The notes below the pieces were generated by a model. The model ran no database searches, was not told where the DNA came from, and worked only from the letters and a program-made list of their open reading frames with translations. A stretch of 64,000 nt of DNA, from contig NZ_CP061080.1 of NCBI RefSeq assembly GCF_014495845.1, positions 2,345,001-2,409,000 of the forward strand, given 5' to 3'. Made by a program: the position numbers and the translations under genes. This stretch comes from Aquibium microcysteis. GTDB lineage: Bacteria > Pseudomonadota > Alphaproteobacteria > Rhizobiales > Rhizobiaceae. Positions 31,950-40,152 of this stretch are shown in pieces (position 1 is the stretch's first letter; every line of letters begins with the position of its first letter).

Positions 31950-32138
31950 CACCGTCGCACAGCGTCCTCTCCTCCCCTCCTTCGCGTCCCCGCGAGAACA
32001 CAGGCTCGGGCAAGCCAGACCTCCTAGTCTGCCGGCGTCGCCGGGCCTTTCCGCTGGGATCGCCGTCCCCGCCGGGGCCGGGTGTCGCCGTTTCGCGACC
32101 GCGCGGGTCCGGGACGAAAGGCTGCGGGGGCTTGCGTC

Positions 32139-35100
32139 ATGTCCATCTCATCGCTGTCGGTCATCCAGATCCGGGCGCTGCCGGCATCCACCATCGCAAC
32201 CTGGACGGACGAAGACGTCGCCCAGCTGTCCACCGCCCAGATCCAGGCGCTGTCGTCGGGCCAGGTCGGCGCGCTGCAGCCCGACAGCGTCGCGGCACTC
32301 ACCACCACCCAGGTCGGCGCCATCGCCCCGCGCGCCATCGTCGGCTTCAGCCTGGACCAGCTCGCCGTGCTCGCCACCGACCGCATCGCCGGGCTCGGCG
32401 GCGCGCAGGTCGCGGCCCTCACCGCCTCGCAGGTCGGCGGTCTCGCCACCGCACAGGCCGAGGCGCTGACGTCGTCGCAGGTCGCCAGCATGAGTTCGCG
32501 CCAGCTCGCCGCGCTCGACCCCGAGGCGCTGCAGACCTTCTCCACCGCCGACATCGCCGCCATCCGCACCGCCGCGATCCCGGGCCTGACGGCCGACGGC
32601 ATCGCCGCGCTGAGTGCCGACCAGATCGCGGCCCTGACGCCGTCGCAGGTCGGCGCCATGAAGCCCGCCCAGGTCGCCGCCTTCACGACCGGCCAGATCG
32701 CGCTTCTCTCGACGGACCAGATCGGCGCGCTCAATTCCTCCCACGTCAAGGCGCTGAGCGCCGGGGCGGTGGCCGCCTTCTCGGCCGATCAGGTCGCCGC
32801 GCTGTCCGTGCGCGCCGTGGCGGGGCTGACGGCTGCCCAGATCGGCGCGCTGTCGACCGGCCAGGTGGGCGCGCTCTCCACCGGCCAGATCGGTGCGCTC
32901 AACGCCACGCAGCTCGCCGCCTTCCCAGCCGAGGCGCTCGCCGCCTTCTCCGCCAGCGACATCGGCGCGATCCGCACCACCGCCATCGGCGGCCTCTCCG
33001 ACGAGAAGGTCGCCGCGCTCTCCGCCGAGCAGGTCGCGGGCCTGCAGCCTGCCCAGGTCGCGGCGCTGCGGCCCTCGCAGGTCGCCGCCCTGTCGACCGC
33101 GCAGGTCGGCGCGCTGACTGCCGCCCAGGTCGCGGCGCTCACGTCCCGGCAGGTCGCGGTGCTCTCCACCGAGGCGATCGCCGCCTTCTCGACGGACCAG
33201 GTGGCGGCACTCTCCGCCCGCGCGATCCCCGGCCTCACCACCGCCCAGATCGGCGCGCTCGGCATCGAGCAGGCCGACGCCCTCACCGCCGGCCAGATCG
33301 CGGCGCTCAACGCGCGCCAGATCGGCACGCTCGACGTCGCGGCGATCCAGACCTTCTCCACGACCGAGATCGCGGCGATCAACGTCACCGCGCTCGCCGG
33401 GCTGACGGCAGACGCCATCGCGGCCCTCGACGTCGGCCAGGTCGCCGCCTTCACGACCCGCCAGGTCGCAGCACTTCGCCCGGGCCAGGTCGGCGCGCTC
33501 GACGCCCAGCAGGTCGCAGCCCTCACCACCGCCCAGGTCAAGGTGATGACGGCAGCACAGGTCGCCGCGCTGCCGGCCGATGCGGTCGCCGGCCTCTCCC
33601 TGGACCAGTTCGCAGCCCTCGGCCCGAAAGCCATCCCCGGCCTCACCGCCGCCCAGCTCGCCGCCCTCGGCACCGCCCAGGTCGAGGCGCTGTCGACCGC
33701 GCAGGTCGGCGCGCTGACCGCCGCGCAGGTCGCCGCGCTCGGGGATGCGGTCGCCGAAAGCTTCACCACGCTGAAACTCGCCGCGATCAAGCCCACCGCC
33801 GTCTCCGGCCTGTCGGCCGACACCATGGCCGCGCTCTCCTCAACCCAGGTCGCCGCGCTGACGGCCGCACAGATCGCCGCGCTGAAGCCGGCCCAGGTGG
33901 CGGCGCTGCTGCCCGCGCAGGTCGAGGCGCTCGGCGCCACGCAGGTCCGCGCGCTGACCTCGTCCCAGGTCGCGGCCCTGGATGTCGAGGCGGTGGCGGC
34001 GTTCTCCACCACCCAGATCGCAGCCCTGTCTGCCGGCGCCGTCGCCGGCCTCACCACCGCCCAGATCGCCGCGCTGTCGAGCGCGCAGGCCGAGGCGCTG
34101 ACCGCCGCGCAGGTCGCCGGCCTCGGCGGCACCCAGGTCGCGGCCTTCGGCGCGGCCGAGCTTGCCACCTTCACCGCGGCCGAGATCGCCGCGATCCGCA
34201 CGACCGCCATCACCGGCCTGCCGGCCGACGCCATCGCCGCGCTCGGCGCCGACCATGTCGCCGCACTGACGAAGACACAGATCGCCGCGCTCACGTCCAC
34301 CCAGGTCGCGGCGCTGACGCCGGCGCAACTCGCCCTGCTTTCCACCACCCAGGTCGCAGCGCTCACGGCGACCCAGGTCGCCGCCGTCGACGCGCAGGCC
34401 CTGTCCGGCCTGTCGGCCGAGCAGATCGGCGCGCTCGCACCGAAGACCGTCGCCGGCCTCACCACGACCCAGGTCGCGGCCCTCACCGCAGGCCAGGTCG
34501 ACACCTTCACGCCCGCCCAGATCGCCGCGCTGTCTTCGGCCCAGGTCGGCGCCCTGGGAACGGCCGCACTGCAGACCTTCTCCTCCGCCGACATCGCCGC
34601 GATCGCCACTGCCGCGATCGCCGGCCTCTCCGCCGAGACCGTCGCAGGCCTCGCCACCGAGCAGGTCGCGGCGATGACCACCGCCCAGGTCGCCGCCCTG
34701 AAGCCGGCGCAGGTCGCGGCCCTCACGCCTGCCCAGTTCGACGCCCTGTCCACCGGACAGATCGGCGCGCTGGCCGCCGTCCAGGTCGCGGCGCTGTCCA
34801 CCGAGACCGTCGCAGCACTCGCCCCGGACCGGCTGGCCGCCCTGTCCACGAAGGGGCTCTCCGGCCTCTCCACCGATGCCATGGCCGCCCTGTCGGCGAC
34901 CCAGGTCTCCGCGCTGACGTCGACCCAGCTCGCAGCCCTCACGGCCTCGCAGGTCGGCGCCCTGTCGGGGGCGGTGCTGGAGAGCCTGAACCCCGAGACC
35001 ATCGCCGCGTTCAGCCCCGCGGGCCTCTCCGGCCTTCCCGCCGCCAGCTTCGCCGGCCTCGCCCCGACCACCATCTCGACCCTGACCACGGCACAGGTCG

Positions 35101-35975
35101 CGGCGCTGAAACCGGCGCAGGTCGCCGCCATGACGCCGGAGCAGATCGGCGCACTGACCACGGCGCAGGCCGGCGCGCTCACCGGCACGCAGTTCCTGGC
35201 GCTCGGCGCCGCGCAGATCGCCGCCTTCGCGCCGCAGCAGGTGGCGGCGCTGACGACGGGCGTCGTCTCCAGCCTGAGTGCCGCCCAGATCGGCGCGCTG
35301 TCTTCCGCCCAGATCGACGCGTTGACCACCACGCAGGTCGCGTCCCTGAAATCCGCCCAGCTCGCCGCCCTCGGCGCCGAGACGATCGCCGCCTTCTCCG
35401 CCGAGGACATCGCCGCCATCGACGCCACCGCGCTGCAGGGCCTGTCCTCCGAGACGGTCGGCGCGCTGTCGCTCGAACAGACGGCGGCGCTGCGGCCGGC
35501 CCAGATCGAGAAGCTCACCTACTACCAGCTGCGCGCCATGAGCGCGGGCCAGCTCGGCGCGCTGTCCGCCGTCCAGGTCGGCGCGCTGAGCGCGCTGCAG
35601 GTCGCCTCGCTCGGCGCCGACCGGATCGGCGCCATCACGCCGCTGCAGATCGCCGCCATCGACGTCGACGCGATCTCCGGCTTCTCGACCGCGCAGCTCT
35701 CGGCGCTCACGGCCGAGCAGGTCGAGGCCTTCACCCCGGCCCAGGTGGCGGCCATGACCGCCGAACAGATCGGCGCGCTGGAGACCGGCGACCTCGCCCA
35801 GTTCTCCGCCGACGACGTCGCCGCCATCGCCGCGACCGCCATCCCCGGCCTGTCAGCATCGCAGATCCTCGGCCTCAGCCAGGTCCAGCTGCAGGCACTG
35901 ACGTCGAGCCAGACCGCCGTGATGAGCTCCCAGCAGCTCGCCTCGATCATCGCCGCCTACGAATCCTTCGCCTGA
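32139..35975 (+). CDS. giant octapeptide-repeat protein (1278 aa)
   Basis: After about five residues the whole protein is octapeptides of form [S/T]xxQ[V/I]xAL, about 158 in succession, such as STAQIQAL and TAAQVAAL. A marker pair of octads ([S/T]xxDIAAI then xTAIxGL) recurs at nt 32538, 32946, 33354, 33762, 34170, 34578, 34986, 35394 and 35802. Each interval is exactly 408 bp, that is 136 aa or 17 octads. No signal peptide, no transmembrane helix, no Cys, and it ends SIIAAYESFA. The S/T-xx-Q start of each octad looks like a helix cap, so a solenoid is likely. ATG 32139 is preferred over the in-frame GTG at 32082. Function unknown; an extracellular or structural role is a guess. Confidence 0.9.
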   Translation: MSISSLSVIQIRALPASTIATWTDEDVAQLSTAQIQALSSGQVGALQPDSVAALTTTQVGAIAPRAIVGFSLDQLAVLATDRIAGLGGAQVAALTASQVGGLATAQAEALTSSQVASMSSRQLAALDPEALQTFSTADIAAIRTAAIPGLTADGIAALSADQIAALTPSQVGAMKPAQVAAFTTGQIALLSTDQIGALNSSHVKALSAGAVAAFSADQVAALSVRAVAGLTAAQIGALSTGQVGALSTGQIGALNATQLAAFPAEALAAFSASDIGAIRTTAIGGLSDEKVAALSAEQVAGLQPAQVAALRPSQVAALSTAQVGALTAAQVAALTSRQVAVLSTEAIAAFSTDQVAALSARAIPGLTTAQIGALGIEQADALTAGQIAALNARQIGTLDVAAIQTFSTTEIAAINVTALAGLTADAIAALDVGQVAAFTTRQVAALRPGQVGALDAQQVAALTTAQVKVMTAAQVAALPADAVAGLSLDQFAALGPKAIPGLTAAQLAALGTAQVEALSTAQVGALTAAQVAALGDAVAESFTTLKLAAIKPTAVSGLSADTMAALSSTQVAALTAAQIAALKPAQVAALLPAQVEALGATQVRALTSSQVAALDVEAVAAFSTTQIAALSAGAVAGLTTAQIAALSSAQAEALTAAQVAGLGGTQVAAFGAAELATFTAAEIAAIRTTAITGLPADAIAALGADHVAALTKTQIAALTSTQVAALTPAQLALLSTTQVAALTATQVAAVDAQALSGLSAEQIGALAPKTVAGLTTTQVAALTAGQVDTFTPAQIAALSSAQVGALGTAALQTFSSADIAAIATAAIAGLSAETVAGLATEQVAAMTTAQVAALKPAQVAALTPAQFDALSTGQIGALAAVQVAALSTETVAALAPDRLAALSTKGLSGLSTDAMAALSATQVSALTSTQLAALTASQVGALSGAVLESLNPETIAAFSPAGLSGLPAASFAGLAPTTISTLTTAQVAALKPAQVAAMTPEQIGALTTAQAGALTGTQFLALGAAQIAAFAPQQVAALTTGVVSSLSAAQIGALSSAQIDALTTTQVASLKSAQLAALGAETIAAFSAEDIAAIDATALQGLSSETVGALSLEQTAALRPAQIEKLTYYQLRAMSAGQLGALSAVQVGALSALQVASLGADRIGAITPLQIAAIDVDAISGFSTAQLSALTAEQVEAFTPAQVAAMTAEQIGALETGDLAQFSADDVAAIAATAIPGLSASQILGLSQVQLQALTSSQTAVMSSQQLASIIAAYESFA

Positions 35976-37615: not shown

Positions 37616-37777
37616 CGCACGCCCCCGACGAAAGCCATCCGCGCGACGGTCCAGCCGATCCCCGCGACCCATTCGGGACCTGCGTCGCCCGAGATTGACG
37701 AAGCGGCCTGCAGACGCCCCCTCACCCGCCCCCCCACCAAGGCGACCCCCGGCATGGCCGCCCCCTCCGCTTCGTCA

Positions 37778-38719
37778 TCAACTCTGAGCCGATTGTGCGT
37801 CTCTGAGCCTTGCATTGAGGGTGACGATGATCTTTCGCATGACTGCGGCGATTGCGACGATGGGGCGTTTTCCGTTGTCGACGAGGCGTTTGTAGAAGGA
37901 TGCGAACTCGCCTCTGCCGGCGGCTGCGCGCAGTGCCGGCATGAACAGGGCTGTTCTGATCTGCGGCCTGCCGCCGCGTTGCCGCCGCCGGCCGGTTGCG
38001 GTTCCGCTCTCGTTGGGGTGGGGAGCTGTCCCGGCCAGGGCGGCGGCCTGCCTGCGCTGGAGGGAGCCGAGTTCGGGCATCTGGGCGATGAGGGTTGCGG
38101 CGCATGTGAGGCCGATGCCGTTCATGGCGGTGCACACGGCGATGCGTTGGCGCAGGCTCTGGCTGCGTGCGACGAGGGCGGCGATCGCCGCGTCGAGCTT
38201 GTCGATCTGTTGCTCGATGGCGGCCAGCATGGCCTTGAAGGAGGCTGCGAGTGCCTTGGCGCCGGGCGCCCTGGAGCGGTTGCGCTCGGCGACCCTGAAG
38301 GCGACGAGGTCGGCCCTACGCCGCACCAGGACCTGCAACTGCCTCTCGTCGGCGTCTTGCGCCTGCCACAAAGACAGCTTGGCCCAGCGCTCGCGCGCAT
38401 AGGCGGCCATTTGGGCGGCGTCGATGGCATCGCTCTTGCCGAGCGTGCCAAAGGAGCGGATGAAGCTCTTGAGCTTCAGGGTGTCGGCACGGTGGCAGGC
38501 GATTCCGGCCTTGAGGCATTCCTCCAGAAGCAGCAGTTCGTAGCCGCCGGTAGGCTCGCAGACGACGAGGTCGGGCCGGGCTTTCTTGAGCATGGCGCGA
38601 ATGGCGGATCGGCTGTTGTCGATGGTCGCGGCGGCCTGGCGGCCGTTGCTGACGGTGAGACTGTCCTTGGCGACATCGACGCCGAGGCAGCAGGCGGGCG
38701 GGTGGTGCAGAAAGGCCAT
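37778..38719 (-). CDS. IS110-family transposase (RuvC-like DEDD plus Ser domain)
   Basis: 313-aa recombinase. The DEDD residues are D15 (CLGVDVAKDSL), E55 (VVCEPTGGYE), D97 and D100 (GKSDAIDAAQMA). The C-terminal Tnp domain has GIGLTCAATLIAQMPELG and the catalytic Ser at about 238 in GTAPHPNESGT. Both halves are intact, so it should be active. The start is ATG at 38719. The stop TGA spans the element end: its last base belongs to the AT core at the target, so the core completes the stop codon. It would act with the RNA encoded directly upstream. Confidence 0.93.
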   Translation of the reverse strand: MAFLHHPPACCLGVDVAKDSLTVSNGRQAAATIDNSRSAIRAMLKKARPDLVVCEPTGGYELLLLEECLKAGIACHRADTLKLKSFIRSFGTLGKSDAIDAAQMAAYARERWAKLSLWQAQDADERQLQVLVRRRADLVAFRVAERNRSRAPGAKALAASFKAMLAAIEQQIDKLDAAIAALVARSQSLRQRIAVCTAMNGIGLTCAATLIAQMPELGSLQRRQAAALAGTAPHPNESGTATGRRRQRGGRPQIRTALFMPALRAAAGRGEFASFYKRLVDNGKRPIVAIAAVMRKIIVTLNARLRDAQSAQS

Positions 38720-38730
38720 GAGGGTGCTAT

Positions 38731-38905
38731 CCTTTGCGGGCTTCGGATTGTTTGCGGGCGTGACGGCGCGTCAGGGGCCCGATCAACTCTCCAAGCGGTG
38801 GTGCAAAGGCGGCAGGGAGCCTTGATGACGTCGGGTGTCGGCCCGATCCCGGAAACGGTCGCCTGCCGCCGAGGCTGCGGGTGTTCGAGCCCGCAGCCTC
38901 ATCCA
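38731..38905 (-). ncRNA. IS110 bridge RNA (predicted)
   Basis: About 175 nt, transcribed like the transposase and ending near its start. A 5' hairpin has a perfect 11-bp stem (38890-38900 with 38871-38881). The target loop is closed by a perfect 9-bp stem (38862-38870 with 38808-38816). It holds a left-target guide TTCCGGGAT (38846-38854) and a right-target guide CGTCAT (within 38824-38830). The donor loop is closed by CCTTTGC/GCAAAGG (38803-38809 with 38731-38737). It holds a left-donor guide AGAGTTGAT (38782-38790) and a right-donor guide CAAACAAT (38747-38754). All four match the real flanks and ends with the sense and order known for the IS621 bridge RNA. Confidence 0.88.
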
Positions 38906-38931
38906 ACACTACCCCGTTCGGCTCAAACAAT

Positions 38932-40152
38932 CCCGGAACGGCGTCCGAGCGCAGCGCAGGACGCCGTATCCGGGATCCATGCCTCGGCGGACATCCCCGC
39001 GATCCGGCCCACGACGAGGCACGTGCCGCCGGTCGTCGGCGCGGGCGCCGCATCCTCCAGCGTCGCCGCCCCCCCCTCCGTCGTCGCTGCGCGACGCCAC
39101 CTCCGCCCCCACTTCGTGGGGTGGAGGACAGCCCGCCCCAAGCGCCGCCGCCCATCCTCCAACCCCACGAAGTGGGGGAGGTGCCGAGCGAAGCGAGGCG
39201 GAGGGGGGGACCCCGCCGGACCAGTCCGCGACGGTGGACGGTCGGCACGACGGACGTGGCCAGGCGGTCCATCACGCTCCCGCGCATCGACGGCCCGAAG
39301 ATCGGAGCCATCGTTGCCCCCACCTTCGTCATCCCGGAACGGCGTCCAAGCGCAGCGCAGGACGACGTATCCGGGATCCATGCCTCGCCGCCCATCCCCG
39401 CGATCCGGTCCACGACGAGACACGTGCCGCCCGGTCGCCGCCGCGGGCGCCGCATCCTCCAGCGTCGCCGCCCCCCTCCGTCGTCGCTTCGCGACGCCAC
39501 CTCCGCCCCCACTGCGTGGGGTGGAGGAAGCCCGCCCAAGCGCCGCCGCCCATCCTCCAACCCCACGAAGTGGGGGGGAGGTGCCGAGCGAAGCGAGGCG
39601 GAGGGGGGGACCCCGCCGGGCCTGGCCGCGACGACGGACGGTCGGCACGACGGACGTGGCCAGGCCGTCCGTCACGCTCCCGCGCATCGACGGCCCGAGG
39701 ATCCGACCCGTCGCGCGCCCCTTCACCTTCGTCATCCCGGAACGGCGTCCAAGCGCAGCGAAGGACGCCGTATCCGGGATCCATGCCTCGGAGCAGGTCA
39801 TCGAGCGGGACGATGGAGAAGGTCCGACCGGTGCGTCGCCTGCACCGCCCCGCCTTTCGACGACCGCGGAGGCATGGATCCCGGGTCTGCGCCTCCGCTC
39901 CGCTCCGGCTTCGCCCGGGATGACGAAGGTGAGAATAGCGCCGCCCCCCGCCTTCGTCATCCCGGAACGGCGTCCAAGCGCAGCGCAGGACGACGTATCC
40001 GGGATCCATGCCTCGCCATCCGTCCCCGCGCTCCGGTCCACGACGAGGCACGCGCCGCCGCCGCCCCCGTCGCCGCCACATCCTGCGCCGCCCCCCCTCC
40101 GTCGTCGCTGCGCGACGCTACCTCCGCCCCCACTTCGTGGGGTGGAGGACGG
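38932..40152. repeat. second array of dispersed palindromic modules
   Basis: No gene is supported. CGTCATCCCGGAACGGCGTC-type modules start at about 38929 (interrupted by the IS), 39327, 39730 and 39955, alternating with CCCCACTTCGTGGGG/CCCCACGAAGTGGGG modules and a CGACGGACGTGGCCAGG...CGCATCGACGGCCCGA spacer at 39250 and 39647 that also occurs at 15540. The shared spacer shows that this array and the 14.4-15.7 kb array are related copies of the same composite. Confidence 0.9.

Follow-up and report, generated by a model that had tools for sequence, protein, structure and literature searches.

How does an insertion sequence that is found five times in one genome, each time in the same repeat, recognize its target? 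The window considered here (64,000 nucleotides of Aquibium microcysteis, contig NZ_CP061080.1, positions 2,345,001 to 2,409,000) carries such an element on its minus strand at 37777-38929, an insertion sequence of the IS110 group (1,153 bp with its AT core counted once), and the question is whether the noncoding region upstream of its recombinase gene, tnp, specifies the site. The bridge RNA mechanism was first described in 2024, and a first-pass annotation made from the letters alone had proposed a complete bridge RNA at this locus, with four guides readable on the minus strand; all of its guide strings are present and match the true flanks and ends of the element. Judging from sequence, we consider it highly probable that a predicted bridge RNA of ~177 nt would direct the element's own recombinase to TTCCGGG-AT-GACG, and the element likely makes this RNA.

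The element, its recombinase and four candidate guides

The recombinase gene (37778..38719, minus strand) encodes 313 amino acids with DEDD_Tnp_IS110 and Transposase_20 domains (PF01548, E=4.9e-16; PF02371, E=6.4e-13) and scores above the cut-off of NF033542, the NCBIfam model "IS110 family RNA-guided transposase". The only solved structures matched by its sequence were IS621 (8wt6, E=1.6e-23) and ISCro4 (9t56, E=5.5e-22), and the D-E-D-D residues as well as the second-domain Ser-Gly of IS621, whose roles are known from the IS621 structure (PMC11208158), are kept in the alignment. By these comparisons it is a full-length recombinase of the IS110 type, related to IS621 and with its active-site residues kept. 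The closed 6.1-Mb one-contig genome harbors five copies with the same ends, four of them without a difference across the 1,154 bp compared; the fifth, L005, differs, with one base changed in the RNA region shown (in the 5' hairpin loop), and the recombinase frame is open in all five. Between core and tnp start codon lie 210 nt of noncoding sequence. At the other end the stop codon, TGA, runs into the right core: its A is the first base of that core in all element kinds whose right end is known, and the element therefore lacks a noncoding right end. The stop of two more distant relatives precedes a putative GTTGAT-like end by ~5 (L117) and ~23 (L118) bases. An RNA region upstream of tnp with the bottom-strand target match first is the IS110-group layout, and we place the element in this group because of the RNA location and guide order; membership in the IS1111 group is ruled out by the upstream RNA region and the absence of a noncoding right end. 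A search of 2,184 plasmid records yielded only matches below 60% identity.

On the minus strand, the left target half (TTCCGGG plus core AT, 38930..38938) and the right target half (core AT plus GACG, 37773..37778) flank all copies. The left target guide (LTG), TTCCGGGAT at 38846..38854 with the core as its last two bases, matches the left flank at 9/9 positions, and the right target guide (RTG), CGTCAT at 38825..38830, is the complement of ATGACG and fits the right flank at 6/6. The left donor guide (LDG, 38782..38790) is identical at 9/9 positions to the left donor, AGAGTTGAT at 37777..37785, which is the 3' end of the element and contains the tnp stop codon; the right donor guide (RDG), CAAACAAT at 38747..38754, is complementary at 8/8 to the right donor, ATTGTTTG at 38924..38931, comprising the core and the 5' end of the element. 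These fits hold in 5/5 copies, and the four guides in order were found in 0/100,000 Markov resamples of the region (single motifs in 0.015% to 1.9%). Their order and sense are those of the IS621 bridge RNA (PMC11208160), in agreement with the first-pass annotation. Beyond what that annotation had noticed, we found handshake dinucleotides, the stop codon overlapping the core, a subterminal inverted repeat, a predicted circle-only promoter and a preference for palindrome arms. The handshake positions are defined in the IS621 structure (PMC11208158): directly after the RTG, CA (38823..38824, minus strand) complements the donor TG left of the core in all 15 kinds whose right end is known, and directly after the RDG, CC (38745..38746, minus strand) complements the target GG left of the core for every insertion in 13/16 kinds and for some in kind G759, with 0/2 bases fitting in G634 and 1/2 in G995b. 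The CC fit is weak evidence alone because GG is common in targets.

Covariation of the guides and the predicted RNA

Relatives came from searches covering 199 and 394 genomes within the family, 397 within the order and 385 within the class, together with a scan of GTDB contigs (12 loci). The guide comparison covered 32 insertions in 16 element kinds, and the shuffle tests 15 kinds (14 for the RTG), with L065 (kind G583) set aside as the window's own element. We dropped L066, L103 and L107 as repeat insertions by their flanks (equal to L036, L065 and L068), L110 and L114 as having flanks nearly duplicating those of L106 and L112, L104 for lacking the 5' part of the noncoding region, L117 and L118 for an unaligned RNA region, and the partial L067, L074, L075 and L076; L039-L064 and L069-L073, at ~45% identity or less, were likewise left out of the guide comparison. 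L108, which is without its right end, counted for the left side only, and L116 (contig lacking the left flank), L037 and L038 (contigs lacking the right end) served for the fold and donor comparison only.

At its seven non-core bases, the LTG fitted its own flank at 85.5% vs. 54.0% after shuffling of targets among kinds (0/50,000 shuffles as high; 15 kinds); for the four non-core bases of the RTG the values were 93.2% vs. 81.9% (90/50,000; 14 kinds). The own target was best or tied best for 14/15 kinds and strictly best for 7/15. In register, the LTG fit was 82.8% vs. at most 42.2% with the flank shifted by 1 to 8 bases, a comparison that included the mis-read row of L078. Relatives inserted at other targets thus carry other target loops, which fit their own flanks better than shuffled ones; this is the reverse of the constant loop at varying targets that the first-pass annotation had named as refuting its bridge RNA, and it supports that interpretation. 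L068, for instance, combines the RTG CCTCAT with a right flank ATGAGG (CGTCAT and ATGACG in the window), L083 has the LTG GCGTAGGAT with an identical flank, and the G497 element has the LTG GCGGAGGAT with flanks GCGGAGGAT or GCAGAGGAT. On the donor side, the 5' end and the RDG change together: ATTGTTTG occurs with CAAACAAT, the 5' end ATTGTTCG of a four-copy element in G341 with the RDG CGAACAAT, and ATTGTCTG in L037 and L038 with CAGACAAT; the RDG fit is 7/8 in the L079-L083/G497 group and also 7/8 in L081.

The predicted bridge RNA occupies 38724..38900 on the minus strand, as do its parts. Its best-fit start at ~38900 is taken from the predicted -10 box, about 5 nt further in than the region of about 175 nt (38731..38905) given earlier, and its length of 177 nt is by analogy with IS621 (PMC11208160). 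Its elements are an 11-bp 5' hairpin (38871..38900), a target-binding loop (38808..38870) closed by a 9-bp outer stem (38862-38870 with 38808-38816), and a donor-binding loop (38740..38796) with an outer stem that we count as 6 bp with one bulge, so that the hairpin and the 9-bp stem stand as first described and the 7-bp donor stem does not. Folding of the 211-nt left end is more favourable than that of shuffled sequences (z = -3.19, 2/200 as good). We set the two-loop structure by hand after an RNAalifold prediction; across 20 sequences 95.4% of cells are paired, 9/24 pairs show two-sided changes and the covariation score is 0.210, values reached by 0/500 shuffles. With slid partners at most 53.7% of cells are paired, a control that favours the structure because the structure was drawn from the consensus. 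The covariation signal comes mostly from the target loop's outer stem, and such compensatory changes in relatives support the bridge RNA reading; the donor-loop stems (97.5% and 96.3% paired), including the outer helix, are largely invariant. A terminal 5' hairpin appeared in 17/18 stretches folded (window included; that of L078 shortened), with stem sequences that differ strongly between groups, and it was more stable than all 200 shuffles in 11/18, tied in one and not so in six.

A promoter for this RNA is predicted to form only in a circle, as reported for IS621 (PMC11208160). Joining the ends creates TTGATT in all 14 kinds for which the right end is known; TAnnnT follows 17 or 18 bp on in 14/15 kinds, the fifteenth having TATAGA, in regions where TA makes up 1.5% of dinucleotides; in the window, the predicted -10 box TAGTGT (38906..38911, minus strand) would lie at a spacing of 17 from this -35 TTGATT once the ends are joined, with the same layout in relatives. 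The ends also carry an 8-bp subterminal inverted repeat, with the left arm TGAGCCGA at 38918..38925 and the right arm at 37785..37792 within the last tnp codons (both minus strand). It matches at 8/8 bp in the window, 13/14 in L078 and 7/8 in G759, and is weak or absent elsewhere; over 14 kinds, own pairs scored 167 vs. 141.2 (standard deviation 8.4) when shuffled, with 293/100,000 as high. Set against subterminal inverted repeats of 2-3 bp in the IS110 group and 7-17 bp in the IS1111 group (PMC11208160), these ends look intermediate between the groups.

Several observations weigh against the bridge RNA interpretation. The shuffling of targets among kinds ignores kinship among the elements. 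The LDG is nearly invariant, so that its match is seen with almost no covariation support, and the 5' end of L081 (ATTGTTAG) departs from its own RDG. Only 5/7 non-core LTG bases fit in 6/32 insertions (L077, L079, L081, L091, L105, L115), and one of the four non-core RTG bases is missed by 11/31 insertions with a right flank (L065, L105, L109, L115, L036, L078, L088, L085, L087, L089, L091); in L036 and L091, the first base of the left core is G in place of A, and L116, outside these counts, has a right-flank mismatch adjoining the core. The unconstrained minimum-energy fold pairs part of the LDG with the RDG rather than leaving the donor guides open, and a fold constrained to keep all guides open is 9 kcal/mol less stable (-76.1 vs. 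-85.1). TAnnnT is not kept at 17-18 bp in the distant extras L116, L037 and L038. Rfam gave no match at gathering score in the RNA region, and an RNA already known to Rfam is ruled out on this count. As for the poorer fits, the guides of L091 and L115 differ from those of sister copies without fitting their own flanks better, probably reflecting guide drift after insertion.

A few relatives deserve mention for themselves. G759 holds five copies of one element (L105, L109, L111, L113, L115) at a palindrome with a short loop and a variable stem (CCGAGCAT or CCGAGGAT), the changed left guide of L115 (GAGTAT) fitting neither exactly. G341 (L078, L085, L087, L089, L091) harbors two elements of the branch at similar palindromes, with the donor ends ATTGTTTG and ATTGTTCG. 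L104 (G654) retains the recombinase and the remainder of the RNA region, but its 5' hairpin and left end are unrecognisable; since L104 adjoins a contig start, this may be damage or misassembly.

Target palindromes and alternative explanations

All five copies lie at TTCCGGGA|TTGTTTG...GAGTTGA|TGACGAA in one orientation relative to the repeat, and the target TTCCGGG-AT-GACG forms the outer margin of one palindrome arm. In the window, the rest of the interrupted palindrome, with the other arm ATCCGGGATCC, spans 38930..38980, and uninterrupted target sites remain at 39326-39339, 39729-39742 and 39954-39967. Genome-wide, the uninterrupted 16-mer GTTCCGGGATGACGAA occurs 97 times (35 forward, 62 reverse), the uninterrupted 12-mer TTCCGGGATGAC 114 times and the other-arm site ATCCGGGATCCATG 112 times, each with a control of 0. 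At the other arm the left guide fits 8/9 bases and the right guide misfits, and 0/5 copies are found there; with five copies, the use of a single arm is suggestive only. Among relatives, the hit arm has an upstream partner at least 7/8 complementary in 24/32 insertions (11/16 kinds with at least one), 1.1 being expected from shuffles. Seven of the other eight have a partner with 5 or 6 of 8 (L065, L068, L077, L080, L085, L086, L088), and the eighth, L119, whose known flank is short, has 2 of 8. The spacing of the arms of hit palindromes ranges from 4 to 31 bases between hosts; different repeat families are therefore hit.

One insertion lies outside repeats, in a gene. L065, on a contig of Aquibium carbonis, is a 99%-identical copy with the same guides (the same insertion is found as L103 in G583), and its target, TGCCGGGAT|GACCGG inside a hydrolase gene, is a near-match to the guides. 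Its flanks, when joined, read as one unbroken Abhydrolase_11 domain (E=9.2e-70, residues 27-219), and homologues from the genus align across the junction with no bases gained or lost (L121 and L123, two of four tried). This continuity indicates that the insertion was scarless at AT, and the site itself that one mismatch per target guide is tolerated and that a palindrome is unnecessary. With uninterrupted repeat copies and the hydrolase gene as empty-site references, no target duplication beyond the core was seen for the own repeat copies or for L065. At the window locus, the flank was matched in 4/5 genomes of the genus, its own included, with no usable empty site; in the three relatives, the repeat array was absent (G583) or other sequence stood next (G177, G105).

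By analogy with IS621, we surmise that the element would excise as a circle, that its joined ends would build the promoter of TTGATT, 17 bp and TAGTGT from which the bridge RNA would be transcribed, and that one loop of this RNA would pair with the target and the other with the donor, the DEDD and serine active sites then cutting at the AT core and exchanging strands there. The left guide would read the palindrome stem and the right guide the GAC(G) tail beside one arm, and the latter may explain why a single arm and orientation are seen in 5/5 copies. We postulate more tentatively, as a view that falls a little short of an even bet, a distinct alphaproteobacterial branch of bridge RNA systems in which the left guide re-adapts to the palindrome stem of each host, the right guide reads the common ATGAC tail, which fixes arm and orientation, and the donor half is kept constant by serving also as the recombinase stop and by adjoining an IS1111-like inverted repeat, giving a layout between both groups.

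It is also conceivable, albeit unlikely, that a processed short form, akin to the seekRNA described for IS110/IS1111 elements, works as the guide, with the target loop only (~70-100 nt) and a donor loop that is dispensable or acts otherwise. The near absence of covariation in the LDG would be in keeping with such a form, but the donor-loop stems are kept at 97.5% and 96.3% of cells, the RDG changes with the 5' end of the element in several classes, and most kinds have fitting handshake dinucleotides.

Two further explanations dispense with a guide RNA or with transposition, and we regard each as very improbable. That the recombinase protein itself recognizes the palindrome, with the guide matches as leftovers of a captured repeat in a regulatory 5' leader, would suit the excess of insertions at palindrome arms (24/32) and the small RNAs reported to regulate transposase expression in ISPpu9 (PMC8450116). 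However, ordered guides together with handshake bases and covariation would not be expected of a leader, the hit palindromes differ in arm distance by the range given above, and L065 and L088, outside palindromes, match the guides with one mismatch per side; protein-only recognition of palindromes was rejected on the strength of such copies. The abundance of the repeats and their occurrence in arrays could also mean that the copies are inactive passengers multiplied through repeat-to-repeat recombination, yet they stand at five separate sites with differing surroundings, each as an intact 1,153-bp element with exactly the same ends, and the identity of four copies and the open frames in all five likewise speak against this. 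Guidance of the recombinase by a bridge RNA remains the interpretation we favor.

Known systems and the surroundings of the element

The closest counterpart is IS621 of E. coli (PMC11208160, PMC11208158), which has in common with the system predicted here the bridge RNA at the left end, the succession of 5' hairpin, target loop and donor loop, four guides overlapping at a dinucleotide core, the handshake positions, a junction promoter (putative here), repetitive extragenic palindromic (REP) targets and a DEDD plus serine active site. In contrast to IS621, the present element has an AT rather than a CT core, an RDG that can pair over 8 continuous bases where the pairing in IS621 is split, no noncoding right end, with its stop overlapping the core, and an inverted repeat longer than the 2-3 bp of the IS110 group. 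ISRm19 of Sinorhizobium meliloti (Tobes and Pareja 2006; PMC1525189) is likewise an alphaproteobacterial IS110-family element, with 4/4 copies associated with REP sequences; the likeness is one of description, and the excerpt of that paper describes no guide RNA. The seekRNA of ISEc21 (PMC11187229) resembles the predicted RNA in coming from a noncoding region upstream of tnp, with the bottom-strand match before the top-strand match and a junction promoter (putative here), but ISEc21 has a linear target in IS3-family genes and a 74-nt short form as its more abundant RNA. IS1111-group elements such as ISPa11 have in common with the present element a DEDD recombinase, an RNA guide (predicted here) and REP targets (ISPa11), and their subterminal repeats of at least 7 bp compare with its 8 bp; unlike the present element, with its upstream region and IS110 order, they usually have the noncoding region downstream of tnp and a reversed order of target matches.

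Published work already covers bridge RNAs, their covariation with targets, the targeting of REP sequences by IS110 elements and natural reprogramming (PMC11208160, PMC11187229, PMC1525189), and by its sequence the element is a new, unusually clean member of this known kind. We found no paper on Aquibium insertion sequences in the open-licence literature, a search that did not extend to ISfinder, where the element may have a name, and no title on the present group among the open-licence literature on bridge RNA with IS110, with or without Mesorhizobium, and on seekRNA. As predicted, it would be a compact natural bridge RNA system whose core is AT, whose donor pairing is continuous and which lacks a noncoding right end, and the series of relatives in which guides and targets changed together provides data on mismatch tolerance, guide evolution and arm choice. 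If active, AT-core recombinases would widen the set for programmable DNA insertion.

As regards the surroundings, tandem units with a 400-bp period (2.1 copies) make up an array at 38930-39790 that centres on the REP-like palindrome. In G583, a relative from the genus, the sequence matching the LysR gene is followed within ~50 bases by the match to the window from 40909 onward, and this near-adjacency indicates that array and element are absent there. Genome-wide, copies of the target palindrome are often clustered 150-400 bp apart, which suggests that composite longer units rather than single REPs multiply. Near the REP array, at 32082-35975 on the plus strand, lies a 1,297-amino-acid open frame rich in ALTTAQ repeats, which matches PF20080 in 37 stretches (E=2.4e-188).
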